Source of the DNA: Lachnospiraceae bacterium
Lineage (GTDB): Bacteria; Bacillota; Clostridia; Lachnospirales; Lachnospiraceae
Direction of reading: 5' to 3'
Assembly (NCBI GenBank): GCA_900770535.1
Contig: CAAHDV010000235.1
Coordinates: 1-25,534 of the forward strand
Length of the DNA: 25,534 nucleotides
Positions within the stretch are counted from its first letter, which is position 1; each line of letters opens with the position of its first letter. The notes beneath the pieces are model-generated. The model worked only from the letters and a program-made list of their open reading frames with translations, did no database searches and was not told the origin of the DNA. The position numbers and the translations under genes were made by a program. Positions 2,469 to 23,099 of the stretch are shown here, one piece after another.

Positions 2469-2808
2469 GCACTTCTCCCTGCATCTGCTGCCACACCCAC
2501 AGCGCCGCCTCAAACACCGGCTCCTCGGTGGCCAGCACCATGATATCCTGCTGCTCTGCCTTTTTCCGGGCGGTCTCATCCAGCGCAGCGCCTTCCGCCA
2601 GAATGATGCAGGCGGCATCTGCCAGCGTTGCAACCGCCAGCGTATTCATGTTCCCCATGACCGTGACCCAGTCACAGCCCGCCGGGGCTTTTCCCATGGC
2701 CACGCTTAAGAGATCACAGCAGAACGGGGTTGTAATTTCCCGATCCGGGTTCTCCCCCGCGTGGATCACCTGAAATTTTCCACTGTCCAGAAGTTCTTTT
2801 ACCTTCAC
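2458..2808 (-). CDS. DRTGG-domain protein
   Basis: A 116-residue single-domain protein. Its pattern is the DRTGG fold: a short N-terminal helix (VKELLDSGKF), then DREITTPFCCDLLS, and an alternating strand/helix segment ending in CIILAEG and IMVLATEEPVFEAA. DRTGG domains occur in phosphotransacetylase Pta and with CBS domains; their ligand is uncertain, though nucleotide-type binding has been proposed. The start is GTG, read from a GTGA overlap with the stop of the upstream hydrogenase gene, with AGGAGG just upstream. No transmembrane segment is visible. It is one of two DRTGG genes in this five-gene operon, so the pair may form a heteromeric sensor or adaptor. Biochemical role unknown. Confidence 0.82.
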   Translation of the reverse strand: MKVKELLDSGKFQVIHAGENPDREITTPFCCDLLSVAMGKAPAGCDWVTVMGNMNTLAVATLADAACIILAEGAALDETARKKAEQQDIMVLATEEPVFEAALWVWQQMQGEVHGV

Positions 2809-4094
2809 GTTTGTCCTCCTTTTTCCTGCTCCAGCAGCCGCCAGATCCGCTCCTTCATAATATAAACACAGTCCTCTTCCTTCGCCTCGCCCCGGGCAAT
2901 ATCCTCCGCCAGAGCTTTGCAGGACGGCGCGCCGCAGGCTCCGCAGTCCAGGCCAGGAAGCTGCTTGCTTAAGGCTTCAATCCGGCTTAACCGCACAAAA
3001 CTCTCCAGCATGGTCTCACCCAGATTGTAGACCGGCTCATACTCCACGCTCTCAGTCCATGTCATCAGTTCCTCTGCTTTTTCCTCTGTTTCCGCATCCA
3101 TGTGGCTTCTTGCCACCGGCATGTACTTGCGCAGATGCTTCAGTTTAACTTCGGCCACATAGGGATTTTCCACCGTCAGCACACCGCCCACGCAGCCGCC
3201 GCTGCAGGCATCCAGCTCCACAAATTTCAGATTGGTAAACTTCTGGTCCTCCATATCTTCCAGAACCCGGATCACATTCTCGATACCATCCGCCGCCAGA
3301 TAGCTCTCCGTAAAAAGTCCGCCTGCCTCGCCGCCGCTGTGCCCCCAGCTGATGCCGATCTTGCCGGAAATGCTGATATTCTCCGGGTCTTCGTCTACCT
3401 GCTTCATATATTTCAAGAGCTGTGGGTACACATCCTTAATGGCAAGCACACAGTCAATTTCACTTTTTTCCGTTCCAATCGGTGATCTCGCGTAAGTCAC
3501 CTTGGATGGGCACGGAGAGATAAAGCAGATGCCGATGTCCTCTCTGGGAAGCCCCGTCTTTTCCATAGCCCTTTTCACGGCCAGGCCAGCCGCCACCTCC
3601 ACCGGCGGATTTAAGGGAAGCAGATGCGGGATCAGGTTTGGAAACCGCACTCGGATGAGCCGCACCACGCTGGGACACGCCGTGCTGATCAGAGGCAGCT
3701 GTTCCTCATGCTCCGTCAGATATGCGCGGGTAGCCTCGCTGACCAGCTCCGCTGCCGCACTTACCTCAAATACATCGTCAAAACCCATGAGCAAAAGCGC
3801 ATGGAGCACAATATTGATATCATCCAGATTGTTAAACTGGCTGTATAACGAAGGAGCCGGAAGCGCCACCTTGTAGCGGAAGCGCTCCATCTCCTCCATC
3901 TGATCATAAATCGCGTGTTTTGCGTGATGAGGACATACCCGGATGCACTCACCGCAGTCAATACAGAATTTTTTGTTGATCCGGGCTTTGCCATCCTGCA
4001 CGCGGATTGCCTGGGTGGGGCAGCGCTTCAGACAATTGATACAGCCTTTGCATAATTCCTCATCCAGCCGCACGGAATGGTAAAACTTATCCAT
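2805..4094 (-). CDS. Putative sensory [FeFe] hydrogenase, group D-like (HydS-type)
   Basis: A 429-residue protein. Two ferredoxin-type [4Fe-4S] motifs lie at the N-terminus (Cys15/18/21/25 and 44/47/50/54), then an H-cluster domain (~75-320), then a C-terminal four-Cys Fe-S domain (Cys384/387/392/409). H-cluster motifs are ISTACPSV (L1, Cys140), ISPCPSK (L2, Cys195 and Lys198) and DACSGGCVGG (L3, Cys297/301). All four cluster-ligand cysteines are therefore kept, but the proton-relay Cys before Cys140 is Ala139. That substitution, the lack of a PAS domain, and linkage to bifurcating hydABC match the group D sensory hydrogenases (TamHydS-like). Low turnover and H2/redox sensing are expected by analogy. 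I chose ATG 4094: GGAGGTG lies nine bases upstream, and the alternative TTG at 4112 overlaps that ribosome binding site. It is 77 bases downstream of the ATPase gene. Confidence 0.85.
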   Translation of the reverse strand: MDKFYHSVRLDEELCKGCINCLKRCPTQAIRVQDGKARINKKFCIDCGECIRVCPHHAKHAIYDQMEEMERFRYKVALPAPSLYSQFNNLDDINIVLHALLLMGFDDVFEVSAAAELVSEATRAYLTEHEEQLPLISTACPSVVRLIRVRFPNLIPHLLPLNPPVEVAAGLAVKRAMEKTGLPREDIGICFISPCPSKVTYARSPIGTEKSEIDCVLAIKDVYPQLLKYMKQVDEDPENISISGKIGISWGHSGGEAGGLFTESYLAADGIENVIRVLEDMEDQKFTNLKFVELDACSGGCVGGVLTVENPYVAEVKLKHLRKYMPVARSHMDAETEEKAEELMTWTESVEYEPVYNLGETMLESFVRLSRIEALSKQLPGLDCGACGAPSCKALAEDIARGEAKEEDCVYIMKERIWRLLEQEKGGQT

Positions 4095-4171
4095 ACCGCC
4101 TTTCACCTCCAAATGTCATTTTCTGGTGTTTTGGGAACGCCTGACTTTCGCCACTGCATCCCGGTATATAC

Positions 4172-4597
4172 TCATATCAGATTCACTTCCATCGTGATCT
4201 TCGTGCCTACACCAAGTTTGGTCTCTATCTTCATGTCATCGGTATATTTTTTCATATTCGGCAGGCCCATTCCGGCCCCGAATCCAAGATTTCGCACTTC
4301 ATCCGGCGCTGTGGAATAACCGGCCTGCATGGCAAGACCAATATCCGGGATGCCCGGTCCCACATCGTCCAGAACCATCCACACCTTTTCCGGTGTAATT
4401 TCCACCGTAATTTCTCCTCCATTTGCGTGAATCACCATGTTGATCTCGCCCTCATACATGGCAATGGCTACCTTGCGCACGGCCTCCGGGCTGATGCCAA
4501 GCTGCTTTAATTTCCCTTTTACATCGCTGCTGGCTTCCCCTGCCCGGGTAAAATCATCTGCCGAAACATGATACTGTAGTACGATCGCGTTTTCCAT
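4172..4597 (-). CDS. Stand-alone HATPase, RsbW/anti-sigma serine-kinase-like
   Basis: A 141-residue GHKL ATPase domain with no histidine phosphoacceptor or sensor region. N box: AMYEGEINMVIHANGG; G1: DDVGPGIPD; G2: GFGAGMGLPNMKKY, which should form the ATP lid. This matches the RsbW/SpoIIAB class (HATPase_c_2), which phosphorylates a STAS antagonist on serine and binds sigma factors. No STAS protein or sigma factor is in the window, so the target is unknown. Its ATG shares one base with the upstream TGA stop (TGATG), with GGAGGTG before it, so translation is tightly coupled. Next to the group D hydrogenase gene it is the natural candidate signal-transducing kinase, by inference. Confidence 0.85.
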   Translation of the reverse strand: MENAIVLQYHVSADDFTRAGEASSDVKGKLKQLGISPEAVRKVAIAMYEGEINMVIHANGGEITVEITPEKVWMVLDDVGPGIPDIGLAMQAGYSTAPDEVRNLGFGAGMGLPNMKKYTDDMKIETKLGVGTKITMEVNLI

Positions 4598-4944
4598 CAG
4601 ACTGCACCTCCACCAAGTCCTGCGCTGTAGAGCATGCCGCAGGTAGAGAACATCCGGTGTCCCGTTTCCATGACAATCAATTCACGTTCTTTTGCCATAG
4701 TAAGAATGGTTTCATCCGGATGTTTTCTCCGTACAAAGATCACACAGACAATGTCTAACATCTCCGCCGTGCGGATCACCTGCGGATTGCAAAGTCCTGT
4801 GATCAGAACCGAATGATCCTTGGAAAAGGCCAGCACATCGCTCATCATGTCGGATGCGCAGGCACTTGTGATCTCGCGGTCCAGAAATTCTTCCCCCGTA
4901 AGCACCCGGGCACCGAGGATCTTCTGAACATCTCTTGCTGTCAT
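4597..4944 (-). CDS. DRTGG-domain protein, first gene of the operon
   Basis: A 115-residue protein of the same family as the gene at 2458-2808, sharing the LxGxExLDREITSACASDMMSDVL-like core pattern (here beginning MTARDVQKILGARVL) and the strand CVIFVRRKHPDETIL followed by LIVMETGHRMFSTCGML. The start at 4944 is supported by AGGGGG nine bases upstream. The frame stays open to 5046, but no ribosome binding site supports that longer start. The leader is then about 110 bases; I recognise no riboswitch in it. The extra C-terminal segment, with Cys and a GLGGG tail, is absent from the other DRTGG gene. Ligand and partner are unknown. Confidence 0.8.
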   Translation of the reverse strand: MTARDVQKILGARVLTGEEFLDREITSACASDMMSDVLAFSKDHSVLITGLCNPQVIRTAEMLDIVCVIFVRRKHPDETILTMAKERELIVMETGHRMFSTCGMLYSAGLGGGAV

Positions 4945-5062
4945 AGGCAGATTCCCCCTGTCATAAAATAAATGAAACATGGCTTTCGCATTATTGGTTG
5001 AGCCATTTTTACCATTGCTAATTTCGTCATGCTTTTGACAAACCATACAGTTTTATAGGGTA

Positions 5063-5091
5063 ATAATATCATTATTTCTGTTCATAATCAA
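5063..5091 (-). promoter_or_regulatory. Promoter of the DRTGG-hydS operon
   Basis: On the minus strand TTGATT (5086-5091) and TATTAT (5063-5068) are 17 bases apart, with TG one base before the -10. Transcription would start near 5056. Confidence 0.7.
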
Positions 5092-5122
5092 CAAAAACAT
5101 TTATTGTGTCTTTAAATTAACG

Positions 5123-5146
5123 GAGAAAAAATGTAGATTTTTTCTC
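5123..5146. promoter_or_regulatory. Perfect 9-bp inverted repeat in the divergent hyd promoter region
   Basis: GAGAAAAAA (5123-5131) and TTTTTTCTC (5138-5146) flank a 6-base spacer. It ends about ten bases before the putative hydC -10, where a regulator could bind. It could also end stray transcripts. No known operator is recognised. Confidence 0.45.
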
Positions 5147-5152
5147 GTCTTC

Positions 5153-5170
5153 ATGTTAATATATTATAAG
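5153..5170 (+). promoter_or_regulatory. hydC -10 region overlapping a Rex-like site
   Basis: ATGTTAATATATTATAAG agrees with the clostridial Rex operator consensus (TTGTTAA, four bases, TTAACAA) at 10 of 14 defined positions; the left half-site has 6 of 7. It contains an extended -10 (TG, T, TAATAT at 5157-5162). No good -35 is visible. Rex senses the NADH/NAD+ ratio and is known to control hydrogenase operons, so the match is sensible, but the right half-site is poor. Confidence 0.45.
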
Positions 5171-5203
5171 CATTTTACAAACGCAATAAAGAGGAGGGTT
5201 CAC

Positions 5204-5698
5204 ATGGCTTGTAAAAAAGAGACGGTTCCTTTCAGCGGAACACCGGAGCAGGAAGCTGCGCTGAAAAAGGTGATCGCGGAACTGAAGGACACTAAAGGCG
5301 CGCTCATGCCGATCATGCAGCAGGCACAGGATATTTACGGCTACCTGCCAATTGAAGTCCAGACTATGATTTCCGATGAAACCGGAATCCCGTTAGAGAA
5401 AATCTACGGCGTTTCCACATTCTACTCCCAGTTCGCGCTGCAGCCCAAGGGCAAGTACCAGATTTCCGTATGCCTCGGTACTGCCTGCTATGTAAAGGGC
5501 TCCGGCGCCATCTTTTCCAAACTGGAGGAGCTTCTTGGCATCACCAACGGAGAATGCACCCCGGACGGACGTTTCTCGCTGGATTCCTGCCGCTGTGTCG
5601 GCGCCTGCGGACTGGCCCCCGTCATGATGATCAACGACGAAGTTTACGGACGGCTCACCCCGGACGACATTCCTGGCATTCTTGCCAAATACAATTAG
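5204..5698 (+). CDS. hydC: Electron-bifurcating [FeFe] hydrogenase, subunit HydC (NuoE-like)
   Basis: A 164-residue NuoE-family protein: an N-terminal helical bundle (with ALMPIMQQAQDIYGYLP) then a thioredoxin-like [2Fe-2S] domain. Ligands are the CLGTAC pair and the CRCVGAC pair (CxxxC). The C-terminal GRLTPDDIPGILAKY is typical. In HydABC it relays electrons between HydB and HydA. ATG 5204 is chosen because GAGGAGGG lies five bases upstream; a longer frame from 5153 would start within the putative promoter. It is the first gene of the plus-strand hyd operon, and its stop lies three bases before the next gene. Confidence 0.95.
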   Translation: MACKKETVPFSGTPEQEAALKKVIAELKDTKGALMPIMQQAQDIYGYLPIEVQTMISDETGIPLEKIYGVSTFYSQFALQPKGKYQISVCLGTACYVKGSGAIFSKLEELLGITNGECTPDGRFSLDSCRCVGACGLAPVMMINDEVYGRLTPDDIPGILAKYN

Positions 5699-5701
5699 CC
5701 T

Positions 5702-6259
5702 ATGATGCCGGAAATTTCTTTAAACATCCTTGACGTAGCAGAAAATTCCACCCGCGCCGACGCATCCCTGGTGCAGATCACGGTAGATGTACAGCCGGAT
5801 GCGGACAGACTCACCGTCATTATCACGGATGACGGCTGCGGCATGACAAAAGAACAGGTTGAACGGGTCACCGACCCCTTCTACACCAGCCGCACCACAA
5901 GAAAGGTAGGCCTGGGTGTTCCGTTTTTCAAGTTCGCTGCCGAAAGTACCGGCGGAAGCTTTTCCATCGAATCGGAACCCGGAAAAGGAACCACGGTCAC
6001 AGCCATCTTTACGCTGAACCACATAGACCGGATGCCCCTTGGCGATATGACCGCCACCATCCACACCCTGATCCAGGGCCACCCGGACACCGATTTTCTC
6101 TACGTTTACCGCTGCAGCGAAAAGGAATTTTCCCTGGATACCCGCGAAATGCGCGCCATTTTAGGAGACGTTCCTTTTGACACACCTGAAATTTCCAGTT
6201 ACATCAAAGACTATCTGACCGAAAACAAACTCGAAACCGACGGAGGAGCCGTTTACTGA
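5702..6259 (+). CDS. Stand-alone histidine-kinase-like ATPase (hyd operon)
   Basis: A 185-residue GHKL ATPase domain at residues ~1-105 with N box (LNILDVAENSTRA), G1 (DDGCGM), F box (DPFYTSR) and G2 (GLGVPFF), then about 80 residues I do not recognise. There is no DHp phosphoacceptor helix, transmembrane segment or sensor domain, so this is not an ordinary histidine kinase. A comparable ATPase gene is found within hyd operons of acetogens such as Acetobacterium woodii (from memory). It may phosphorylate or bind a hydrogenase subunit or regulator. Two adjacent ATGs (5702 and 5705) follow the hydC stop with no clear Shine-Dalgarno, so translation probably depends on coupling. A 107-base gap with no gene follows. 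Confidence 0.85.
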   Translation: MMPEISLNILDVAENSTRADASLVQITVDVQPDADRLTVIITDDGCGMTKEQVERVTDPFYTSRTTRKVGLGVPFFKFAAESTGGSFSIESEPGKGTTVTAIFTLNHIDRMPLGDMTATIHTLIQGHPDTDFLYVYRCSEKEFSLDTREMRAILGDVPFDTPEISSYIKDYLTENKLETDGGAVY

Positions 6260-6366
6260 CCAGTTTCCATGACTGCAGGATCTGCGCTGTTTTCCAGCAC
6301 AGTATTTCATGCCAGAAGCCGGAAGCCGAACAGAAACCACCGTCAGAACAGGAGGACGAACATAAC

Positions 6367-6744
6367 ATGAAAAGTCTTGAAGAATTAAGAGCAATCCGCG
6401 AGAGAATGCAGAGTCAGGTCAGCATGCGTGCGGAAGACCACACCCACACTCGCGTTGTGGTCGGCATGGCTACCTGTGGCATCGCCAGCGGTGCCAGACC
6501 GGTTTTAAACGCCCTTTCCACTCTGGTTCAGGAGAAGGGCCTGACCGATAAAATTTCCGTTACCCAGACCGGCTGCATCGGCCTTTGCCAGTACGAGCCT
6601 ATTGTAGAGGTCATGGAACCGGGCAAACCGAAAGTCACCTACATCAAAATGAATGCGGACAAGGCTGCCGAAATAGTAGAACGCCATCTCATCGGCGGAC
6701 ACATTGTCGAAGAATATACCTTAAATTCTGCAGATCTGAAATAA
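6367..6744 (+). CDS. Thioredoxin-like 2Fe-2S-type protein, HydD-like
   Basis: A 125-residue protein. After ~28 polar residues comes a thioredoxin-like ferredoxin fold: VVVGMATCGIASGA, then VTQTGCIGLCQYEP, ending IVERHLIGG. Aligned with hydC and the HydB N-terminus, the second Cys of the first pair and both Cys of the second pair are present, but the first Cys is replaced (Gly-Met-Ala-Thr-Cys). Only three of the usual four cluster ligands remain, so it may not bind a standard [2Fe-2S] cluster. A small subunit in this place is part of the HydABCD complex in Acetobacterium (from memory). AGGAGG lies eleven bases upstream of the ATG. It sits 12 bases before hydB. Confidence 0.85.
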   Translation: MKSLEELRAIRERMQSQVSMRAEDHTHTRVVVGMATCGIASGARPVLNALSTLVQEKGLTDKISVTQTGCIGLCQYEPIVEVMEPGKPKVTYIKMNADKAAEIVERHLIGGHIVEEYTLNSADLK

Positions 6745-6756
6745 GGAGGACAACAG

Positions 6757-8544
6757 ATGTATCGTTCACATGTATTGGTTTGCGGCGGAACAGGCTGTAC
6801 CTCCTCCGGAAGCCAGCAGATTATGGAAACCTTAAAAGAAGAAATCAAAAAAGCCGGACTGGAATCGGAAGTCTCTGTAGTCCAGACCGGATGCCACGGT
6901 CTCTGCGCCCTGGGCCCGATCATGATCGTGTACCCGGACGCAAGCTTCTACTCCATGGTCAAGGTAGAAGACATTCCTGAGATTGTTCAGGAGCATTTAT
7001 TAAAAGGACGTGTCGTTACCAGACTCCTCTATCAGGAGACGGTTACCCCGGCTGGCGTAAAAGCCCTCATCGATACCAACTTCTATAAAAAGCAGCACCG
7101 CATTGCCCTGCGCAACTGTGGTATCATCAACCCGGAAGTCATTGAAGAGTACATCGGAACCGGCGGCTACCAGGCTCTGGGCAAGGTTCTCACCGAGATG
7201 ACCCCAGACGACGTCATCCAGTGCCTGATGGATTCCGGCCTGCGCGGACGCGGCGGCGGCGGATTCCCCACCGGTCTCAAATGGAAGCTGGCCAAGCAGA
7301 ACGACGCGGACCAGAAATACGTCTGCTGTAACGCCGACGAGGGTGATCCGGGCGCATTCATGGACCGCTCCGTCTTGGAGGGCGATCCCCACGCAGTCCT
7401 GGAGGCTATGGCCATTGCCGGTTACGCCATCGGCGCAAACCAGGGCTACATCTATGTGCGCGCGGAGTATCCGATTGCGGTAGAGCGTCTGAAAATTGCC
7501 ATTAACCAGGCCCGCGAGATGGAGCTTTTAGGAAAAGACATCTTCGGCAGCGGCTTTGATTTCGATATCGACCTGCGTCTGGGCGCAGGAGCCTTCGTCT
7601 GCGGCGAGGAAACCGCCCTCATGACCTCCATCGAGGGCAACCGCGGTGAGCCAAGACCGCGTCCTCCGTTCCCGGCACAGAAAGGCTTATTTGGCAAACC
7701 GACCATTTTAAATAACGTAGAGACCTACGCGAACATCCCGCAGATCATCTTAAACGGTCCGAAGTGGTTCGCATCCATGGGTACCGAGAAATCCAAAGGC
7801 ACCAAGGTATTCGCGCTGGGCGGCAAGATCCATAACACCGGCCTGGTGGAGATTCCGATGGGTACCACCCTCCGCGAAGTCATTGAGGAGATTGGCGGCG
7901 GCATCCCGAACGGCAAGAAATTTAAGGCAGCCCAGACCGGCGGCCCGTCCGGCGGATGTATCCCGGCAGAACATTTCGATATCCCGATCGACTACGACAA
8001 CCTCATCTCCATCGGTTCCATGATGGGCTCCGGCGGCCTCATTGTTATGGATGAGACCGACTGTATGGTAGACATTGCGAAATTCTTCCTGGAATTCACC
8101 GTGGAAGAATCCTGCGGTAAGTGTACCCCGTGCCGCATCGGCACCAAGCGCATGCTGGAGATCCTTACCAAGATCACCAAGGGCACCGCTACCATGGAAG
8201 ACCTCGATAAACTGGAAGAGCTCTGCTACTACGTGAAAGAGAACTCTGCCTGCGGCCTTGGCCAGACGGCTCCGAACCCGGTTCTCTCCACCCTCCGCTA
8301 CTTCCGCAATGAGTACGAGGCCCACATCAAAGAGAAACGCTGCCCGGCAGGTGTCTGCAAGGCACTGCTCTCCTACCACATCGACGCAGACAAGTGTAAG
8401 GGCTGTACCCTGTGCGCAAGAAACTGCCCGGTTGGCGCCATCATCGGCTCCGTCAAGAATCCACACATCATCGACACCGACAAGTGTGTTAAGTGCGGCG
8501 CCTGCATGGAGAAATGTAAATTCGGCGCGATCTACAAACAGTAA
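6757..8544 (+). CDS. hydB: Electron-bifurcating [FeFe] hydrogenase, subunit HydB (NuoF-like, FMN/NAD-binding)
   Basis: A 595-residue protein. An N-terminal thioredoxin-like [2Fe-2S] domain (residues ~1-85; CGGTGC and TGCHGLC) is followed by the NuoF core, with the glycine-rich FMN/NADH motif GLRGRGGGGFPTG (~163) and NADEGDPGAFMDR. An SLBB segment (IHNTGLVEIPMGTTLREV) and the ESCGKCTPCRIG [4Fe-4S] motif come next. Two C-terminal ferredoxin [4Fe-4S] motifs (CKGCTLCARNC and CVKCGACMEKC) complete it. HydB binds NAD(H) and the FMN at which electrons from NADH and ferredoxin are thought to meet. AAGGAGG lies seven bases before ATG 6757. The length and order of domains are normal for HydB. Confidence 0.97.
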   Translation: MYRSHVLVCGGTGCTSSGSQQIMETLKEEIKKAGLESEVSVVQTGCHGLCALGPIMIVYPDASFYSMVKVEDIPEIVQEHLLKGRVVTRLLYQETVTPAGVKALIDTNFYKKQHRIALRNCGIINPEVIEEYIGTGGYQALGKVLTEMTPDDVIQCLMDSGLRGRGGGGFPTGLKWKLAKQNDADQKYVCCNADEGDPGAFMDRSVLEGDPHAVLEAMAIAGYAIGANQGYIYVRAEYPIAVERLKIAINQAREMELLGKDIFGSGFDFDIDLRLGAGAFVCGEETALMTSIEGNRGEPRPRPPFPAQKGLFGKPTILNNVETYANIPQIILNGPKWFASMGTEKSKGTKVFALGGKIHNTGLVEIPMGTTLREVIEEIGGGIPNGKKFKAAQTGGPSGGCIPAEHFDIPIDYDNLISIGSMMGSGGLIVMDETDCMVDIAKFFLEFTVEESCGKCTPCRIGTKRMLEILTKITKGTATMEDLDKLEELCYYVKENSACGLGQTAPNPVLSTLRYFRNEYEAHIKEKRCPAGVCKALLSYHIDADKCKGCTLCARNCPVGAIIGSVKNPHIIDTDKCVKCGACMEKCKFGAIYKQ

Positions 8545-8559
8545 TGGAGGAGAATGGCT

Positions 8560-10308
8560 ATGGAGAATATCACAATTAAAATCAACGGCATGGAAGTCAG
8601 TGCCCCGAAAGGCTCCACCATTCTGGAGGCAGCCCGCCTGGCACACATTGAAATTCCGACCCTCTGCTTCTTAAAAGACATCAACGAGATCGGCGCCTGC
8701 CGCATCTGTGTTGTGGAAGTAAAAGGCGCAAGAAGCCTGGTGGTTTCCTGCGTATACCCGATCAACGATGGCATGGAAGTCTGGACCAACACCCCGAAGG
8801 TGCTGGAATCCCGCAGAAAAACCCTGCAGCTTCTGCTTTCCAACCATGACCGCAAGTGCTTATCCTGCGTCCGCAGCGGAAACTGCGAACTGCAACAGCT
8901 CTGTAAAGAACTCGGTGTTGCCGATGAAGGCTATTACGATGGCGAGCGCACTCCGTCCATCATCGATGACAGCGCCGTTCACATGATCCGCGACAACAGC
9001 AAGTGTATCCTGTGCCGCCGCTGCTCCGCAGTCTGCGAGAAGGTACAGGGCATCGGCGTCATCGGCGCCAACATGCGCGGCTTTGCCACCTTTATCGGCT
9101 CCGCCTTCGATATGGGCCTGGGCGAGACCTCCTGTGTCTCCTGCGGCCAGTGTATCGCAGTCTGCCCGACCGGCGCCCTGCAGGAGAAATCCCAGGTGGA
9201 CGAGGTTCTGGCAGCCATTGCAGATCCGGACAAACACGTTATCGTGCAGACCGCTCCGGCTGTCCGCGCCGCCTTGGGTGAGGAATTCGGCTACCCGATC
9301 GGCACCAACGTACAGGGCAAGATGGCGGCAGCCCTGCGCCGCATCGGCTTTGACAAAGTATTCGACACCAACTTCAGTGCCGACTTAACCATCATGGAAG
9401 AGGCTCATGAATTCTTAGACCGCGTGCAGAACGGCGGCGTGCTTCCGCTCATCACCTCCTGCTCCCCGGGCTGGATCAAATACTGTGAGCACTACTTCCC
9501 GGATATGACCGAGAACTTATCCAGCTGCAAATCCCCGCAGCAGATGTTCGGCGCCATTGCAAAATCCTACTACGCAGAGAAGATGCACCTGGATCCGAAA
9601 AATATCGTTTCCGTTTCCATCATGCCGTGCACCGCAAAGAAATTTGAGATTCAGCGCCCGAATGAGGCGGCAAACGGTGTCCCGGATGTAGACTACTCCT
9701 TAACCACCAGAGAACTGGCCCGCATGATTCGCAAGGTCGGCCTGAAATTCAACACCTTACCGGATGAAGAGTATGACGCACCTCTGGGCCTTGGAACCGG
9801 CGCAGCCGTGATCTTCGGCGCCACCGGCGGCGTTATGGAGGCAGCACTCCGCACCGCAGTAGAAACCCTGACCGGCGAGGAATTACAGAATCTGGACTTC
9901 ACCGATGTCCGCGGCATGGAAGGCATCAAGGAAGCTACCTACCCGGTGGCAGGCCTGGAAGTCAAGGTTGCCATCGCCTCCGGCCTTGGAAACGCAAAGA
10001 AGCTGCTTGAAAAAGTCAAATCCGGTGAAGCAGACTACCACTTCATCGAGATCATGGGCTGCCCGGGCGGTTGCATCAACGGCGGCGGCCAGCCGCAGCA
10101 GCCTGGCTACGTGCGCAACACCGTAGATATCCGCGGCCTGCGCGCCAAAGTCCTCTACGACTCCGACAAGAACAACCCGATCCGCAAATCCCATGAGAAT
10201 CCGGCCATCAAGGAGCTGTACGCAACCTTCCTCGGAGAACCGGGAAGCCAGAAAGCACATCATCTGTTACATACCACTTATGTGAAGAGAAAAGTGAACG
10301 AGATTTAA
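8560..10308 (+). CDS. hydA: Electron-bifurcating [FeFe] hydrogenase catalytic subunit HydA (group A3)
   Basis: A 582-residue protein. It has an N-terminal plant-type [2Fe-2S] domain (Cys36/47/50/64), a NuoG-type His-Cys3 [4Fe-4S] site (His96, Cys100/103/109) and two ferredoxin clusters (Cys149-159 and 192-202). The H-cluster domain has L1 TSCSPGW, L2 MPCTAKKFE and L3 MGCPGGCINGGGQP, and is followed by the small-subunit (Fe_hyd_SSU) domain to the C-terminus. It makes or oxidises H2 in the cytoplasm. L1 has Ser next to Pro where the other three hydrogenases here have Cys; I recall TSCSP as usual in HndD/HydABC-type enzymes. ATG 8560 is preferred over 8554 because GGAGG lies nine bases upstream. 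It is the last gene of the operon. Confidence 0.97.
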   Translation: MENITIKINGMEVSAPKGSTILEAARLAHIEIPTLCFLKDINEIGACRICVVEVKGARSLVVSCVYPINDGMEVWTNTPKVLESRRKTLQLLLSNHDRKCLSCVRSGNCELQQLCKELGVADEGYYDGERTPSIIDDSAVHMIRDNSKCILCRRCSAVCEKVQGIGVIGANMRGFATFIGSAFDMGLGETSCVSCGQCIAVCPTGALQEKSQVDEVLAAIADPDKHVIVQTAPAVRAALGEEFGYPIGTNVQGKMAAALRRIGFDKVFDTNFSADLTIMEEAHEFLDRVQNGGVLPLITSCSPGWIKYCEHYFPDMTENLSSCKSPQQMFGAIAKSYYAEKMHLDPKNIVSVSIMPCTAKKFEIQRPNEAANGVPDVDYSLTTRELARMIRKVGLKFNTLPDEEYDAPLGLGTGAAVIFGATGGVMEAALRTAVETLTGEELQNLDFTDVRGMEGIKEATYPVAGLEVKVAIASGLGNAKKLLEKVKSGEADYHFIEIMGCPGGCINGGGQPQQPGYVRNTVDIRGLRAKVLYDSDKNNPIRKSHENPAIKELYATFLGEPGSQKAHHLLHTTYVKRKVNEI

Positions 10309-14078: not shown

Positions 14079-15721
14079 TTATTTTACATTGATTTCAGTT
14101 AGGTCGATGGTGTAGGCATCGAAGATGTCCACGCCTGCCAGACGACTGCTGTGCGCGATGTGCGCCGGAGCCTGTGCAATGACGATGAACGGGCCATCCT
14201 CATACATCTCGTCCTGGATCTTTCCAAGTACGTCTGCACGCTCGGTATCGTCGGTTGCTGCCATTGCGTCCTCATAGAGGGCTGCCAGATCCTGATTCAT
14301 GTCTGCGGTCCAGCCTGCGCGCTTTCCGACTACGCCGCCCGGTAAGAACTCAAGCTGTACGTTCGGATCGCTGTAGTCTACGCCCCAGTACATCACAGTG
14401 AAGCCCAGGGTGCCGTTGCGGTACTCATCGCCGTAGCCTGCTGCCCATGCCTCGGTCTTAATGTTCACGTTGATGCCGATCTGGGATAAGTCATCCTTTA
14501 CTTTCTGAGCCAGGTCAGTTAAGAGGATACCCTCCATATCCAGGTCAGAAACGGTCATATCCACGTCAAATCCATCCGGGTAGCCTGCATCTGCCAGAAG
14601 CTGTTTTGCCTCGTCTAAGTTGGTGTAGTCGTCCGGGCGCTCGCCCTTGCTTCCCATAAAGCCATCCTGAATGATGGAGTAAGGAGTCAGGGTTCCCTCT
14701 CCGCAGATCATGCGGATGCCGGAGTAATCCAGTGCCTTGCGGATTGCTTTCTGTACATCCGGGTTGGAAACCGGGCCGCCGTACTGCTCATCCATGTTCA
14801 TCATCACGAAACCGATCATCTTGGTGGTTCCGTCCACGATCTCCACGTTGTCTGCGGATTTCAGCTCATCCATGGTGTCATCGGTCAGGTTCAGTGCCAC
14901 ATCAATATCACCGGTGGACAGGGTCATCATCTGGGTGTTCGCATCCGGCTGGATCTTTAAGATGTATTTGTCTACGTTGGTTGCCTCACCCCAGTAGTTC
15001 GGGTTCTTCTCCAGAACCACTTCCTCATCCGGAGTGTAGCTGGTCAGCACATACATGCCGCTTCCTGCGCTTGCGCTGTCGAGGAAGCTCTGAGCGGCAT
15101 CGGTGGAAGAAGCATCCTCCGCGTCGGTTCCGCCGTTCTCTTTTACGACTGCGCTGTCAAGAACAGCCAGGGAGCTGTAGGTCAGCTTGGAAAGAATTGC
15201 GCTGTCCGGCTGATTTAAGTGGAATACCACGGTCTTGTCATCCGGAGTCTCAATGCTCTCGATGGTGTCGCAGATAAAGGACGGGTTGCCCTTTAAGTTC
15301 TTGGTACGGTTGATGCTGAATGCCACATCCGCGGAAGTAATATCATTGCCGCTGGCAAATTTCAGGCCATCTTTAAGGTAACGGTTAAGGTCAGGCCATC
15401 CTCGGAAAACTCATAGGAGTCAGCAAGGCACGGCTGCGGGGTTCCGTTGTTCTCATAAAATTTAAAGAGGTTCTCATAGCAGGCATTGACAATGAGCTGC
15501 GGGTACTTCTCGTACACATAACCCGGATCCAGGGTGGAGAATCCAGAACCCATGGCAATGATGACGGTGCTTCCATTTCCATCGGTGCTGCTTCCGGTCT
15601 CAGCGCTTCCGCTGGTTCCTGCTGCTGTGGTGCCATCTGCACTCTGTCCGCCGCCGCATGCCATAAGACCTGCTGCTACAGCCATGGAGAGGGCAAGGAC
15701 TGCGATTTTTTTCTTTTTCAT
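14079..15721 (-). pseudogene. dppA: Peptide-binding lipoprotein (DppA/OppA, SBP_bac_5), interrupted by one frameshift
   Basis: Two adjoining reading frames form one extracellular solute-binding protein of about 547 residues, the normal family length. The N-terminal part (15362-15721) starts with a lipoprotein signal (MKKKKIAVLALSMAVAAGL, then the lipobox LMAC with lipidated Cys), has a Ser/Thr/Gly-rich linker, and reads ...SEDGLTLTVTLK before failing. One extra A at the AAA run (15372-15374 on the plus strand as TTT) would restore ...TVTLKDGLKFASGNDIT..., which continues directly into the second part (to 14079). The rest of the gene is intact, with many Thr/Asp-rich stretches typical of the family. 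So this is either a very recent mutation, a phase-variable run, or a sequencing error. GGAGG lies eight bases before the ATG. Confidence 0.88.
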
Positions 15722-15811
15722 AATGTTTTCCTCCTCTTTAATGTATTTCTATCTGAACGGTCCTTCCAGAAAAGACCAGCTCATTCATTATTCATATAAT
15801 GTTGGGGGCAA

Positions 15812-15844
15812 AAGTTTTTCTGCAAGCAAGCTTGCGTCAAACTT
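15812..15844. other. Two-tier inverted repeat in the dppF-dppA gap
   Basis: GCAAGC and GCTTGC (15822-15827 and 15830-15835) sit inside an outer AAGTTT/AAACTT pair (15812-15817 and 15839-15844). There is no T run, so this looks less like a terminator than an RNA-processing or stability stem that could raise dppA expression over the ATPase genes. The 143-base gap shows no gene. Confidence 0.45.
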
Positions 15845-15864
15845 CTGACCTTTTGACCCTGGTA

Positions 15865-17830: not shown

Positions 17831-17859
17831 ATATACTCTCTCGCTTCTGTCGGTTTAAA

Positions 17860-17898
17860 GCGTCAAAGCGCCAATGCAAAAAAAATAAGGCGCGACGC
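17860..17898 (-). promoter_or_regulatory. Leader stem-loop ahead of dppD
   Basis: On the minus strand GCGTC-GCGCC pairs with GGCGC-TTT-GACGC around a loop holding eight T. It lies in the ~80-base leader between the promoter and dppD. It could be a regulatory or stabilising structure; no known riboswitch is recognised. Confidence 0.45.
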
Positions 17899-17918
17899 AC
17901 TGTTACAATATGAAAGTG

Positions 17919-17947
17919 AGAATACCATATTTTAGGAAAAAATTCAA
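17919..17947 (-). promoter_or_regulatory. Promoter of the dpp operon
   Basis: On the minus strand TTGAAT (17942-17947) and TATTCT (17919-17924) are 17 bases apart, with TG one base before the -10. Transcription would start near 17912. Confidence 0.75.
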
Positions 17948-17997
17948 GTATTACGGCGGAATCTTTTGCGGAACTAAACACCAAAAACGGAGTTGGC

Positions 17998-18066
17998 CTA
18001 CTCTACCAGCTCCGCAATCAGTGCAAACAGCTCCTCCACATGGATCGGCTTCGCGATATGCCCGTA
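17998..18066 (-). pseudogene. C-terminal remnant of a receiver-domain (hybrid kinase or response regulator) gene
   Basis: About 22 minus-strand codons ending in TAG read GHIAKPIHVEELFALIAELV, which is the last strand and helix of a CheY-like receiver domain with its conserved Lys-Pro. Nothing upstream in this frame continues the domain; the homology stops at about 18066. This looks like a truncated signalling gene whose body was deleted or displaced, next to the inverted-repeat segment that follows. Confidence 0.6.
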
Positions 18067-18186
18067 TGATCCTATACAATTTTTGTGAACTTGTAACCGC
18101 TCATGCTGTTGTAAAAACACGGGACAACACGAAACACGACTTAGCCAGCAATTTGAATGTCCTATGCTTAACTAAATGACATTGCC

Positions 18187-18565
18187 TACTGAACAGTTAC
18201 TAAACATCATCTTTTCCATTATAAACTTTTCCAAATTCCCGCATCTCGCTACGTTTTGGAAAGCGTAAATCCTGATTATGGCTACATATCTTTTACGTTT
18301 TTGGCAAGCCAATACATGCCAGCAGCTATCGTTTTTTTTGCAACGGAGTCAATAAAGCAGGGCGTGCGAAAAATTGATTCTGGAATTTTCCGCATATCCA
18401 GATGTTTGCATTTTGAGCACACGTGTCCGAATGTGGCGGATGTTAATCCGACACAGGCGAACATGTGTCAGCGAAAGCAAGCAAACAACGGATATGTGAA
18501 AATGTAAGAATTCAATTTTCCACACGCCCGGACTCTTGATTAGTTTTGCTTGTAACTGTTCAGTA
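18187..18565. repeat. Inverted-repeat-bounded segment, possible miniature mobile or dispersed repeat
   Basis: TACTGAACAGTTAC (18187-18200) and its exact complement (18552-18565) bound 379 bases. The inside holds a small hairpin (CGGAT-GTTA-ATCCG near 18438) and two small frames (18256-18507 plus, 18282-18464 minus) that I do not recognise and that lack good ribosome binding sites. It is AT-richer than its neighbours. No target duplication is evident. Together with 17831-18186 this explains most of the 768-base gap without genes. The identity is unproven without other copies. Confidence 0.4.
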
Positions 18566-18578
18566 CCCTCACAGTTAC
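18552..18578 (-). other. Stem-loop just downstream of the group B hydrogenase gene
   Basis: GTAACTGT and ACAGTTAC pair perfectly around an 11-base loop, 21 bases after the hydrogenase stop. There is no T run, so termination is uncertain. One arm is shared with the larger inverted repeat at 18187-18565. Confidence 0.45.
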
Positions 18579-18598
18579 TTTTGCTTCAATATTGCTTT

Positions 18599-20056
18599 TT
18601 AGTGTCTGTGCATTGCCACCTGATCTACGCCCAGGTTCTTTAAGTTTGCATGCACTTCGCGGTCATCTGCCTGGCCGATCAGCAGGTCTCTTGCCTTCTT
18701 GACCTCCAGCTCGGTCTTGTGCTTGCTCGGGCCGCCTACACAGCCGCCTACGCAGACCATACCCTCTACAAAGTCTGCCGGAAGCTTGCCAACCTTCATG
18801 AGCAGCAGTGCTTTCTTACACTCAGCAGCGCCGTTGCACTTCATGACATTCGGAGCGATATCCTCGTTCATCTCCTTGAAGCACTCTACCACGGCTGCGG
18901 TTACACCACCGGAGTTACCGAAGCGTTTACCAAATACGGAACCTTCCTGATAGGTGTTCTCCTCCGGCTCCAGCTCTACATCCTTCGCACGCATCATGGC
19001 ACGGATCTCACCAAAAGTCATCGCATAGTCGGCGTTGTCCTTGATATTTAAGTCCAGAGTCTCACTCTTTTTTGCGATACACGGTCCGATAAATACAGTA
19101 ACGGTCTCCGGGTCTTTTTCTTTGAGCATTCTGGAGACTGCGCACATCGGGGAAACGGTGGTGGACATGTTATCCAGAAGCTGCGGGAAGTGCTGCTTGA
19201 TCATGTTTACGAATGCCGGACAGCAGGAGGTGGTCATCTTCTTGCCCTCTTTGTAAGCCTCTGCCCACTCAGCAGCCTCTGCTGCTGCAGTCATATCTCC
19301 GCCTAACGCAACCTCTACCATGTCTGCGAAGCCAACCTTCTTTAACGCCGTCTTCCAGCTTGCCATGGTGATATCCGGTCCGAACTGGCCCTCGGTTGCC
19401 GGTGCCACCATTGCTACGACCTTCTTGCCTGCGTTGATCATGTTGATGACATCTACCATGAAGGTCTTGGAGCCGACTGCTCCGAACGGACAGCTGTGGA
19501 TGCAGGCGCCGCACTGGATGCACTTGTTCTCATCGATCTCGCATACGCCGTACTCATCATATGTAATAGCGTCTACCGGACATGCCTTCTTACACGGACG
19601 CTCCAGATGCGCGATAGCGTTGTACGGGCAGGCATTTGCGCACTTGCCGCACTCTTTACACTTGTTCGGATCAATGTGGGCACGGGTGTCTCCCATGCTG
19701 ATAGCACCGAAATTACAGGAGTTCTGGCAGGCTTTACCCATACATTTTCTGCAGTTATCGGTTACGGTGTAAGATGCGATCGGACACTCCTCGCAGGCTG
19801 CGCCGATGACCTGAACCACGTTTCTTGAATCCTTGCCGCTGGTCGGGCATTTGCCCTCTGCCAGGCGGACACGCTGACGGATGATCTCGCGCTCTTTATA
19901 GATACAGCAGCGGAACTGCGCCTGCGGTCCCGGGATGATGGTGTACGGAACCTGGTTCTTATGCTCCTCATCCAGCTCACCAGCCCATGCCAGCTTTGCT
20001 ACCTCGTACAGTACGTCGTGTTTGATGCGTAAGATTGTTGCGTCATTTGTTACCAT
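18599..20056 (-). CDS. [FeFe] hydrogenase, group B-like, monomeric with several Fe-S clusters
   Basis: A 485-residue protein. The N-terminal ~200 residues are rich in Cys motifs: CEECP, NCRKCMGKACQNSC, CKECGKCANAC, CKKACP and CIQCGACIHSC, so at least three to four [4Fe-4S] clusters. The H-cluster domain carries TSCCPAF (L1, Cys278/279), GPCIAKKSE (L2, Cys326, Lys329) and CVGGCVGG (L3, Cys435/439), so all ligands and the proton-relay Cys are present. Group B enzymes have this cluster-rich N-terminus, with no [2Fe-2S] or small-subunit domain. It is probably soluble and ferredoxin-linked; its role is not settled in the literature. ATG 20056 has GGAGG six bases upstream. It follows the SpoIIE gene after 126 bases and a weak terminator. 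Confidence 0.87.
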   Translation of the reverse strand: MVTNDATILRIKHDVLYEVAKLAWAGELDEEHKNQVPYTIIPGPQAQFRCCIYKEREIIRQRVRLAEGKCPTSGKDSRNVVQVIGAACEECPIASYTVTDNCRKCMGKACQNSCNFGAISMGDTRAHIDPNKCKECGKCANACPYNAIAHLERPCKKACPVDAITYDEYGVCEIDENKCIQCGACIHSCPFGAVGSKTFMVDVINMINAGKKVVAMVAPATEGQFGPDITMASWKTALKKVGFADMVEVALGGDMTAAAEAAEWAEAYKEGKKMTTSCCPAFVNMIKQHFPQLLDNMSTTVSPMCAVSRMLKEKDPETVTVFIGPCIAKKSETLDLNIKDNADYAMTFGEIRAMMRAKDVELEPEENTYQEGSVFGKRFGNSGGVTAAVVECFKEMNEDIAPNVMKCNGAAECKKALLLMKVGKLPADFVEGMVCVGGCVGGPSKHKTELEVKKARDLLIGQADDREVHANLKNLGVDQVAMHRH

Positions 20057-20175
20057 GATTTTCCTCCTCATTTCCAGAGACCCACTCCGCAAAGATTCCT
20101 GATGGAAGCCGCGCATTGCGCAGACCGCATCAGAACGGATCTCCTGCTCAACTCTTATTTTCTTTGTATTTGTAT

Positions 20176-20195
20176 AAAAAACCTAATAATAGGTT
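20176..20195 (-). terminator. Short terminator overlapping the SpoIIE-family gene's stop codon
   Basis: On the minus strand AACCTA and TAGGTT pair across a 4-base loop and run into six T; the TAG stop lies in the 3' arm. The 6-bp AT-rich stem suggests partial termination, which would lower group B hydrogenase expression. Confidence 0.5.
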
Positions 20196-21364
20196 ACGGT
20201 TACCTGTTTTCCCATCTCTTCCACCACAGTCTTTAACTGCTCCACCAGATTCTGGCGGATGCCAAGATCAAAGGGCAGGCCCGGGTTCTGATAAGCACTG
20301 TTGATGGCTTTTCCCACATATAAATGCAGTTCAGTGCAGTCCTCAATCAGCATCTTGGCTACCATGGAAGCACCATTTTGCTTATCCAGTTCCAGGAAGA
20401 AATCCTCTGAAACCGTTTCATTCTTCGCATAGCGCCGCAGAAGCTGCACCACACGGTTTAAGGTCAGCACGCCCTCCGTTACCAGCTCAATGCCATCCAT
20501 ATAGGCAATGGGCGGGATATCCGGATCCACATAATTCATGGACACGTCCAGCTTCTTCTTTAGGACTCTGGACACGATGGTGGCACTGGTTCCGCCGCAG
20601 ACGATCCGCTTAGTGGAATCGTCCCCCGACATAAAGCTTCGTACCATCTCCTCATCCATGGAAGGATCCTGGGCCGGGCCGGTCATCAAGTGTACCGGCT
20701 TCGCGTTGATGATGCGCATGCAGGCCACCGTGGTATCATCCCCGGGGCGGTACTGGTAAAGCTCGTCACAGGCCTGGCAGATGGATGCCGCAAGGCGCAT
20801 GGCTGATATAGTCAGGGCATACTGCTTCACTGCATATTTGGCAATATCTTCCCAGAGCCAGCCAAAATTTAGAAGCTGCCCTACGCCAGCGTGGACGGTT
20901 CCATCGCTCATCAGGATCAGCGCATCGCCCCGCTGGACCGTAAAACGGTACTCATTAATCTTTTTTCCCTGCACTTCCCGGATGTTCTGGGGGATCGGCA
21001 CAAGCTGGCCGTTCCGGATAAAAATGCAGCTGGGATTGTCAAACTCTACCAGATAGGCATCTCCGCTGTGGAATACCTGAAGGATGCTGAAGGTGGAGTA
21101 GGCTACCTGCCGCACCTTGCAGATGGGCAGCGTCTCCACAATGGTCTCCACACATTCTTCCAGCGTAGCGCCGTTTAAAAACATGGTTCCCAGGATCTTG
21201 GAGGTCAGGGTGGCAAGGATGTTGGCCTTTACGCCGCTTCCCATGCCATCTGCCAGGATCATGATGTTGGAATCTTCAGTTTTCAGCAGCTCCACCTTGT
21301 CTCCGCAGAGAACCTCGGTAAATTTATTCAGGCTCTTATAAGCAACATCTACGGTAATTGCCAT
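20183..21364 (-). CDS. SpoIIE/PP2C-family serine/threonine phosphatase
   Basis: A 393-residue protein. The PP2C/SpoIIE catalytic domain covers residues ~1-225, with metal-binding aspartates in LADGMGSG, LMSDGTVHAG and PGDDTTVACM. About 165 further residues follow as a separate domain I do not recognise (YMDGIELVTEGVLTLNRVVQLLRRY is its most regular stretch). There are no membrane segments, unlike sporulation SpoIIE. Genes of this type next to PAS-bearing hydrogenases define group C3 [FeFe] hydrogenase loci, where the phosphatase is taken to be the signal output. The ribosome binding site GGAGG is inside the last codons of the hydrogenase gene, and the ATG follows its TAG by one base, so the two are coupled. 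Confidence 0.9.
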   Translation of the reverse strand: MAITVDVAYKSLNKFTEVLCGDKVELLKTEDSNIMILADGMGSGVKANILATLTSKILGTMFLNGATLEECVETIVETLPICKVRQVAYSTFSILQVFHSGDAYLVEFDNPSCIFIRNGQLVPIPQNIREVQGKKINEYRFTVQRGDALILMSDGTVHAGVGQLLNFGWLWEDIAKYAVKQYALTISAMRLAASICQACDELYQYRPGDDTTVACMRIINAKPVHLMTGPAQDPSMDEEMVRSFMSGDDSTKRIVCGGTSATIVSRVLKKKLDVSMNYVDPDIPPIAYMDGIELVTEGVLTLNRVVQLLRRYAKNETVSEDFFLELDKQNGASMVAKMLIEDCTELHLYVGKAINSAYQNPGLPFDLGIRQNLVEQLKTVVEEMGKQVTVTYY

Positions 21365-21365
21365 A

Positions 21366-23099
21366 CTACTTACCTCCGTTGTCGCTTCCGTCCTCCAGAA
21401 GGGATCTGCAAAGCTTCGTCAGCGTCGTCTTGGTCTCTGCCGTTGTCTCGCCGAGAAGGCCCGCGATCTCCTGGGCTACCATCATCTGCTTGTGGATGAC
21501 CTTCTGCGCCAGGTCGATGGTATCTAACTTGCGCTCATACTCCAGGCGTGCCTGCTCCTCTTCCTTTGTAATATCAATGAAGGTGGCCAGCACCACATTC
21601 TGCTCCGGTATGTATACAATATTCTGTAAGGTGTCCAGCTTGAACTCCGGATAATGGACCTTTTTGCCGTGAATGTTCTGGTGTGTATCAAATACCCACT
21701 GGAAATCCGCCGGATCAATGAATTCGTACAGATACATCTGTAGCGCCTCCGCCCGGGTCTTGCCGAAATACTTCTCACCCACCGCGGAATACTCCAGAAG
21801 CTTCATATCCTGATCCACGATCATGACCACATTTGGCGATGTCTCCATAACCAGGTTCGCAAAGGACTTGGATTTCTCGTACATGAACGGAATGCACATA
21901 TCAAGCTCGGCCTTTTTCTGATACACCGCAATGGCTTTCTCGCGGCAGGTCGGATAACCGCAGGCGCCGCAGTTTAATTCATCGTCCGGGCGCATTTTCC
22001 CGGTCTTTGCAAGAATCTGGCGGATCTCCTCCTCAGAGGGAACCGGATCATGCGGGGTACGGTCGAAAAATACCTTATTCAGCGATACCGCCTCAAGCAC
22101 CGGAGCTGTCTCTTCCTCCGGCACCGGATCGTGGCTGATCCGTTCTTCCATATCCAGCTTCACCTTAAACCGGGAAATGGAACGGTCATTAACAGTTGGC
22201 CCCTTAATGCAGCCGCCGGAGCACATGTTCATCTCAATGAAGCAGCCCGTGATCTCGCCGCGTACCATGCTCTGGCACAGATCAATGCAGTTGCTCTCAC
22301 CATGTACATAAAACTTCCGGTAATTATCCTGTCCGGACTGTGTAGCCACCACCGAATTGATCACGCCGCTGGTCACCGGATAGAGGCGGTTTACCCGCGG
22401 GTCCATCCGCTCAAACGGGGTATCCTCGCAATCCTCGATGACGATATCCTCTTCATTCAGCCAGCGGTTGATGTCATTGAAGTTTAACACCGCGTCGATG
22501 CAGTCCGCATGGCGCGGATCCAGTGCCTCCTGCTTTTTCGCAATGCAGGGGCCAAGGAAAACGACTTTGGTGTCCGCTCCCATCTGCTGTTTGATCATCC
22601 GTCCGTGGGCGATCATCGGAGAAACCACCGGAGCCAGATACGGAATCAGCTGCGGGTAATATTTCTCGATCAGCGCGTTCACGCTGGGACAGCAGGTGCT
22701 GATGATGTTTTCCATGGTTCCTTCGGAAAGAAGCTTCGCGTACTCCGCCGTTACCAGAGCGGCTCCCTCCGCAGTTTCCCGTACATCGGCAAACCCTAAG
22801 CGCATCAGCGCACAGCGTACCTGCCCGATGGTGTGGTATTTTAAGAGTCCCATATAAGACGGCGCAATGGAAATGACAACCTTCTCTCCCGCCTCAACCA
22901 TGCCTTTTACCAGGCTCAGGTCACTGACCAGCGTTTTGGCCGACTGGGGGCAGATCTGCAGGCAGCGCCCGCAAAGAATACAGTTCTCCGGCATGATCTC
23001 CGCACGCCCGTCTTTTACCATGATGGCCTTGACTTCGCAGTTACGCACACATTTGTAACAATGACGGCATTTCGTTGCTTTAAAGTCAATAATTGCCAT
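21366..23099 (-). CDS. PAS-containing sensory [FeFe] hydrogenase, group C3-like
   Basis: A 577-residue protein. Two ferredoxin motifs (Cys11/14/17/21 and Cys40/43/46/50) are followed by an H-cluster domain with STCCPSV (L1, Cys136/137), GPCIAKKQE (L2, Cys185, Lys188) and MCSGGCIKG (L3, Cys293/297). A four-Cys Fe-S domain (Cys377/380/385/402), a PAS domain (~415-515, TSPNVVMIVDQDMKLLEYS onwards) and a C-terminal helical region complete it. This is the architecture of HsfB/HydS sensory hydrogenases, in which a change at the H-cluster is thought to pass through PAS to the partner phosphatase. Both the ligand and relay cysteines are present, so activity is possible. It starts two bases after the 2Fe-2S gene stop, as one transcript. 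Confidence 0.92.
   Translation of the reverse strand: MAIIDFKATKCRHCYKCVRNCEVKAIMVKDGRAEIMPENCILCGRCLQICPQSAKTLVSDLSLVKGMVEAGEKVVISIAPSYMGLLKYHTIGQVRCALMRLGFADVRETAEGAALVTAEYAKLLSEGTMENIISTCCPSVNALIEKYYPQLIPYLAPVVSPMIAHGRMIKQQMGADTKVVFLGPCIAKKQEALDPRHADCIDAVLNFNDINRWLNEEDIVIEDCEDTPFERMDPRVNRLYPVTSGVINSVVATQSGQDNYRKFYVHGESNCIDLCQSMVRGEITGCFIEMNMCSGGCIKGPTVNDRSISRFKVKLDMEERISHDPVPEEETAPVLEAVSLNKVFFDRTPHDPVPSEEEIRQILAKTGKMRPDDELNCGACGYPTCREKAIAVYQKKAELDMCIPFMYEKSKSFANLVMETSPNVVMIVDQDMKLLEYSAVGEKYFGKTRAEALQMYLYEFIDPADFQWVFDTHQNIHGKKVHYPEFKLDTLQNIVYIPEQNVVLATFIDITKEEEQARLEYERKLDTIDLAQKVIHKQMMVAQEIAGLLGETTAETKTTLTKLCRSLLEDGSDNGGK

Follow-up and report, generated by a model that had tools for sequence, protein, structure and literature searches.

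In all Thermoanaerobacter strains covered by one study, the stretch upstream of the bifurcating hydrogenase genes encodes a histidine kinase as well as a putative hydrogenase of group D architecture, and the available part of that study cites earlier work for the same gene order upstream of hyd (PubMed Central, PMC; PMC3608648). In Thermoanaerobacterium, hfsABCD encodes a PAS-containing hydrogenase (HfsB), a serine phosphatase homologue (HfsC) and a ferredoxin-linked hydrogenase (HfsD) that resembles HydA2 of Ruminococcus albus (PMC11837493; PMC5707799), and HfsA is partly similar to a hydrogenase large subunit (PMC11837493). According to the accessible portions of these papers, a high ethanol yield requires hfsD, hydAB and nfnAB together with the absence of hfsB, a hydC mutation was found upon reversion of the hfsB-deletion phenotype (PMC11837493), and adhE expression rises after deletion of hfsB (PMC5707799). 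Here we describe a contig of a Lachnospiraceae bacterium (CAAHDV010000235.1, assembly GCA_900770535.1; 25,534 nucleotides, the whole of which is called the window below) that holds an operon of each kind and four [FeFe] hydrogenase genes in all. We propose that two known H2 modules have been kept together within a clade and combine two catalysts with two putative sensors, one (C3) working through a phosphatase and one (D) paired with a kinase, a reading to which we give a probability of about 0.68.

The left half of the window resembles the hyd operon of Thermoanaerobacter and Caldanaerobacter (PMC3608648) in having an A3-type operon, a neighbouring D-type gene and a kinase-type ATPase; the RsbT-like, DRTGG and PHP genes of the window are not mentioned in the available part of that paper, and no paper joining an [FeFe] hydrogenase with DRTGG was found in the open PMC literature. 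The right half resembles hfsABCD from the second gene on, in order and in protein types, as compared by description and not by sequence: from 23356 down to 18599 it reads small first gene, PAS hydrogenase, phosphatase and ferredoxin-type hydrogenase. The published description of HfsA differs from the small [2Fe-2S] first gene of the window, and the accessible text names hfsABCD of Thermoanaerobacterium as a cluster apart from hydABCD, whereas its counterpart here lies 8.3 kb from hydA in convergent orientation. R. albus likewise has a PAS sensor with a ferredoxin hydrogenase (hydS/hydA2) in addition to a bifurcating enzyme (hydABC), although neither a D gene nor a linkage of both sets is mentioned for it in the available parts of PMC11837493 and PMC5707799. 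In Vallitalea guaymasensis, the C3 and B proteins are two gene numbers apart (peg.96 and peg.98), as in the window (PMC6163223; HydDB), whereas its three multimeric bifurcating sets lie at distant gene numbers in the portion of PMC6163223 that could be consulted. Because the hyd plus D order and the hfs order have each been described already, neither half is new. Titles and abstract openings in the open PMC literature held nothing on a four-way linkage and, as judged from gene order, the novelty would lie in two known operons forming one conserved neighbourhood.

Four hydrogenases and their linkage in relatives

The Fe-hydrogenase domain (PF02906) is carried by four open reading frames (ORFs) of the window, which together span 20.3 kb. 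Even the lowest-scoring match, at 100.7 bits, is far above the cut-off of 22.1, so chance is excluded as the source of the four matches. A sequence-only reading of this DNA had proposed one protein each of the A3, B, C3 and D types. The four ORFs are present at the coordinates it gave, identical for C3 (21366–23099) and differing only in start codon for D (2805–4112, formerly 4094), HydA (8554–10308, formerly 8560) and B (18599–20116, formerly 20056). In a tree built on 103 rows (a thinned set of 265 proteins plus two Protein Data Bank, PDB, anchors), they separate into four clades with high values of the Shimodaira–Hasegawa-like approximate likelihood ratio test: C3 (40 rows, 96), D (25 rows, 100), HydA with the anchors (23 rows, 100) and B (15 rows, 98). 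The tree was made by a quick method that carries a long-branch warning, its outside anchors belong to group A only, and its rows include no named group D reference. HydA also exceeds the cut-offs of the NCBIfam models NF040763 (NADH-dependent type A6; 925 versus 765 bits) and TIGR02512 (group A), and B that of the group B model TIGR04105 (610 versus 450 bits); neither C3 nor D reaches any of the three cut-offs. The window holds four [FeFe] hydrogenase proteins from four clades, with no two in one group, which confirms the earlier observation.

A scan of genome contigs with D found 239 relatives, 80 of which were kept (top identity 81%). By name, the relatives belong to Lachnospiraceae, Lachnoclostridium, Lacrimispora, Enterocloster, Hungatella, Clostridium and other Clostridia, with a few odd ones from Paenibacillaceae and Planctomycetia. 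Whole-genome searches for all four types covered 39 of the 80 D-bearing genomes, B being identified by score and place. All four types were present in 39 of 39, D and A3 shared a contig in 39 of 39, and B and C3 did so in 36; in G034, G035 and G039 the C3 copy used was the one nearer A3 or closer in sequence, and a second C3 adjoins B. The four genes stand on one contig in 26 of the 39 genomes, spanning 12.3–236 kb (median 16.4 kb), with a span within 30 kb in 17 of the 39 and within 70 kb in 23. HydA and B are convergent in 25 of the 26 same-contig genomes (strands judged by eye; the exception is G037). Where contigs permit measuring, the two halves are mostly near each other, contrary to the possibility that relatives would usually have them far apart. 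The identity, the order and the conservation of these genes are plain from the genomes.

In the window the gap between the halves contains cyclophilin, M24 peptidase and oligopeptide-transport genes, the last standing where the sequence-only reading had placed them. The hydA–B gaps of five relatives (L181, L182, L183, L186 and L187) show no DNA similarity to that of the window or to each other (blastn, E 1e-3), and their ORFs of at least 150 residues are unlike in all five loci, save that the window and L186 both have ABC ATPases, which are 22–27% identical. Because the gap genes differ in all five loci compared, the peptide operon serves as filler in this lineage, and we rejected it as a part of the island. 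In Lacrimispora-type genomes only about 1 kb separates the two hydrogenase domains across the gap. Of the H2-metabolism island that had been proposed, the neighbourhood is kept in relatives (26 of 39), the peptide operon drops out, and the idea of the four hydrogenases as one indivisible set finds no support, as set out below. The gene for the peptide-binding protein (14079–15721, reverse strand) seems to be split over two ORFs in different frames: 14079–15326 matches SBP_bac_5 from profile position 41 on, and 15362–15721 has a lipoprotein-like start and no Pfam match. The split would be a frameshift or a sequence error.

Gene content of the two modules

The first module would consist of the hyd operon and a divergent D operon. 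The hyd operon, on the forward strand, encodes HydC (NuoE-like; 5153–5698; PF01257), a protein with a histidine-kinase-type ATPase domain (5702–6259; PF02518), a small [2Fe-2S] thioredoxin-like ferredoxin similar to HydD (6367–6744; PF01257 just below its cut-off and NF041613 below cut-off), HydB (NuoF-like, for flavin mononucleotide and NADH; 6757–8544; PF01512 and PF10589) and HydA, the A3-type bifurcating catalytic subunit. Both partner subunits of a HydABC enzyme, HydB (NuoF) and HydC (NuoE), lie within the operon at 5153–8544. The best PDB sequence match of HydA is the HydABC complex of A. woodii (7q4v/7q4w). By analogy, HydABC would be an A3-type (A6 in NCBIfam) electron-bifurcating hydrogenase using NADH and ferredoxin. 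The L1 motif of HydA reads T-S-C-S-P-G-W, compared with T-S-C-C-P-G-W in CpI, where we take the second Cys of the motif to be a cluster ligand. Ser occupies this position in 81 of 84 HydA sequences (Cys in 2, 1 unread), and A. woodii HydA1 has the same Ser. Additional bifurcating sets were seen in two relatives: L142 has another, diverged hydC–hydB–hydA set (42–54% identity) at 0–4.1 kb, on the far side of hydA, C3 and the phosphatase, and L158 has a similar extra set beyond group B.

The D operon lies on the reverse strand. Its first gene encodes a DRTGG domain protein (4597–5046; PF07085), followed by an RsbT/SpoIIAB-like serine kinase-type ATPase (4172–4597; PF13581), the group D [FeFe] hydrogenase-like protein (2805–4112; PF02906, with a C-terminal Fe-S motif, PF04060), a second DRTGG-like domain protein (2458–2808; a weak PF07085 match of 20.2 versus 25.2 bits) and a PHP-domain phosphoesterase-like protein (1674–2633; PF02811), the true start of which is probably later than the listed TTG. 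The kinase-type ATPase matches TIGR01925 below the cut-off and an anti-sigma F factor in the PDB at 2e-5, and a 96% homologue (P0123) bears the Joint Genome Institute name RsbT. The kinase gene and the first-gene DRTGG match were found at 80 of 80 D loci each. The second DRTGG was matched at 78 of 80, a count that may include cross-matches to the first DRTGG gene, and the PHP gene at 75 of 80, where some loci stop at a contig edge.

The assignment of the D protein to group D was examined with 20 residues of TamHydS, the group D enzyme of Thermoanaerobacter mathranii, which are named in the available parts of PMC13104023 and PMC10407848 and were located by their published numbering. When each of four blocks was allowed to shift freely, the window protein matched 15 of the 20, among them Ala137 (at its own offset), Glu252, Glu289, Cys379 and Cys404; with a single fixed offset only Ala137 of the 20 matched. 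The same free shifts gave 7 of 20 for the C3 protein of the window, 6 for B and 7 for HydA, and 300 shuffles of D averaged 7.7 and never exceeded 10. At least 15 of the 20 residues were matched in 77 of 86 D relatives. The matches include the group D hallmarks, namely Ala at the CpI C299 position, the Glu pair of the proton path and the residues of the C-terminal cluster. No PAS domain was found in the window protein. It is thus like TamHydS in 15 of the 20 named residues, in having no PAS and in its C-terminal Fe-S site, and unlike it at R32, R42, S384, E122 and K126, which have no match in this comparison by residue numbering. Together with its own clade, these properties bear out the description of a short group D-type protein. 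The C-terminal cluster of TamHydS is reported, in the accessible text, to be unresponsive to H2 (PMC13104023). Beside the D operon, at the left edge of the window (2–1454, reverse strand), is an IS607-like element that combines an OrfB/TnpB-type gene (PF01385) with a MerR-headed serine resolvase (PF00239).

The second module would be an hfsABCD-like operon, also on the reverse strand. Its first gene, which can be called HfsA by position only, encodes a small [2Fe-2S] thioredoxin-like protein (23102–23356; PF01257) and stands ahead of C3 in many relatives. It is followed by the group C (C3-type) sensory hydrogenase (21366–23099; HfsB/HydS-like; PF02906, tree placement and PF00989), a SpoIIE-type PP2C phosphatase with an additional C-terminal part (20183–21364; HfsC-like; PF07228) and the group B [FeFe] hydrogenase (18599–20116; HfsD/HydA2-like). 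The phosphatase adjoins C3, as had been claimed for a SpoIIE partner, and we take an adjoining phosphatase gene to be a mark of the C3 type. The predicted model of the phosphatase (predicted local distance difference test, pLDDT, 79) had a Foldseek match to a SpoIIE phosphatase (5e-13) and also matched RsbU-type PP2C domains. The PAS domain of the window C3 scores under the Pfam cut-off (PF00989; 18.2 versus 22.6 bits), though PF00989 matches every one of the 13 aligned C3 proteins (E values from 8e-9 to 0.05), which upholds the PAS-bearing description; the C-terminal Fe-S motif PF04060 is present in 13 of 13 as well. The predicted C3 model, with a pLDDT of 68.6, is too weak for domain detail.

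C3 has Cys at the CpI C299 position (T-C-C-P), as do 52 of 67 C3 sequences; another residue is found in 8 of 67, and 7 of 67 were unread. Cys at this position is reported for only 17% of sensory sequences in the available part of PMC10055695. The window C3 is 99% identical to protein P0009, named Ventrimonas sp., which makes Ventrimonas or a close relative the probable source of the DNA. Beyond the start of the hfs-like operon lie three tRNA genes (Pro, Glu and Thr; 23610–23873, forward strand), adjoined by a gene for a GGDEF-EAL protein (23962–25485, reverse strand).

Co-occurrence and placement across the family

In a sample of 150 genomes from the family of G009, D was carried by 35 genomes, C3 by 32, A3 by 43 and B by 50, and all four by 14. 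The B counts are lower bounds, since the cut-off of 1e-130 misses distant B (L168 and L173), and the A3 cut-off of 1e-200 admits some HydA copies of only 54–60% identity. A3 was present in 29 of the 32 C3 genomes (p 3e-17) and in 33 of the 35 D genomes (p 6e-22), D and C3 occurred together in 25 genomes (p 2e-14), and B and C3 in 16 (p 0.034), all association p values being calculated with kinship ignored. Among the 29 genomes with C3 and A3, the two share a contig in 21, lie within 70 kb in 19 and within 5 kb in 11. Among the 14 with all four types, nine have them on one contig, of which G165 spans some 350 kb.

The C3–phosphatase pair is found in several layouts. It stands behind hydA on the same strand in L141–L149 and L166, and behind D and PHP in L154, L073 and L074. 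C3 lies 4–8 kb behind hydA in L150 and L152, the latter having no phosphatase match in the stretch taken. In the window's clade, the pair and B share an hfs-like operon close to A3. An hfs-like operon with B lies away from A3 in L151, L153 (49 kb off), L156–L160, L163, L164, L167, L168 and L173. These contexts were laid on a C3 tree of 49 rows (near A3/D: 26 yes, 4 no, 19 unlabelled; B in operon: 27 yes, 19 no, 3 unlabelled), and the best tree requires at least five changes for B in the operon and at least three for nearness to A3/D; looser labels gave 4 and 6, respectively.

Shared control or shared descent

In the proposed reading, HydABC would balance NADH and reduced ferredoxin against H2, and the group B enzyme would vent reduced ferredoxin as H2. 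C3 would bind H2 at its H-cluster and, via its PAS region, signal to the phosphatase encoded next to it, which would then act on a downstream target, and D would be another sensor, paired with a kinase-type protein of its own. Substrates, H2 sensing, direction of signalling and targets would follow those of characterised relatives, and the sensors presumably act on the catalysts.

Several observations weigh against such a tie. The genes lie on separate contigs in 13 of the 39 relatives (in three, another C3 adjoins B), a split that says little because the assemblies are drafts, and the span is 87–236 kb in 3 of the 26 same-contig genomes. The convergent layout in the window's clade probably arose once, in an ancestor, and the numerous genomes with it therefore do not count as independent cases. 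B was associated neither with A3 (16 genomes, p 0.57) nor with D (15 genomes, p 0.22) among the 150 genomes, while C3 goes with both, so that one indivisible set of four is not supported. Finally, a search for an operator common to the promoters of hyd/D and hfs revealed none. With up to 3 mismatches allowed, the first pattern, a Rex-like palindrome, occurred in 12 of 72 hyd/D gaps, compared with a mean of 2.65 in 20 letter shuffles, and in 23 of 52 stretches upstream of hfsA, compared with a shuffle mean of 1.95, the sequences being related in both sets. Among the matches listed, those on the hfs side resemble part of a -35/-10 promoter, and the commonest 9-letter words are unlike between the two sets. 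In the window both patterns hit position 753, the sole site of the first, and the second has a further site upstream of hfsA (23545) if 3 mismatches are allowed.

The alternative that survives best is that the modules are neighbours by descent only, through one chance ancestral meeting followed by slow decay, with no shared regulation. The order stays convergent in genomes with spans as wide as 185 and 236 kb, as a single event with later insertions would explain, and the missing association of B with A3 and D and the failure to find a common operator agree with this alternative. The behaviour of the C3–phosphatase cassette in other lineages argues the other way, as it recurs directly downstream of hydA and downstream of the D operon, with the repeated changes of context that the C3 tree requires; such reappearance under differing arrangements is the strongest indication of a functional tie. 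The genetic interplay between hfs and hyd in Thermoanaerobacterium, as far as the accessible text of PMC11837493 describes it, points in the same direction. We regard descent alone as possible but rather unlikely. A stronger version of the tie, in which the modules form one H2 control unit and D and C3, of different H2 affinity, balance the bifurcating against the venting hydrogenase by means of a kinase and a phosphatase working in opposition on one target outside the classic STAS family, we consider doubtful, with only a small chance of being right.

A further proposal would join the two sensors in a single partner switch, with the D-operon kinase as one arm and the hfs phosphatase as the other. 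The kinase and phosphatase are of the types found in partner switches, and D and C3 co-occur as noted above. However, at the cut-offs used C3 is absent from 10 of 35 D genomes and D from 7 of 32 C3 genomes, and of 40 regions the kinase profile matches 16, each of which has the D operon; C3–phosphatase regions lacking that operon give no match. Partner switching brings kinase, phosphatase and STAS antagonist together; G009 has no STAS gene near the locus, G124, which has D and C3, has a single short STAS match, and the 8 genomes examined have 1 to 4 STAS matches each. One partner switch across both halves is improbable and was rejected as unsupported, the kinase and phosphatase being separable and no STAS lying near in G009.

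Two H2 modules kept together, with two catalysts and two putative sensors, thus remain the preferred reading. Group B is reported as a driver of H2 output in gut bacteria, in the available part of PMC12578642. C3 tracks A3 more than B, which suggests that the phosphatase branch may also serve the bifurcating enzyme, beyond its operon partner. In these relatives of gut bacteria, both sensor types stand near two catalysts, and each sensor has a kinase- or phosphatase-type gene of its own next to it. The locus is not exotic, but it is a good testable one, offering named genes for testing how a signal is relayed from [FeFe] sensory hydrogenases.

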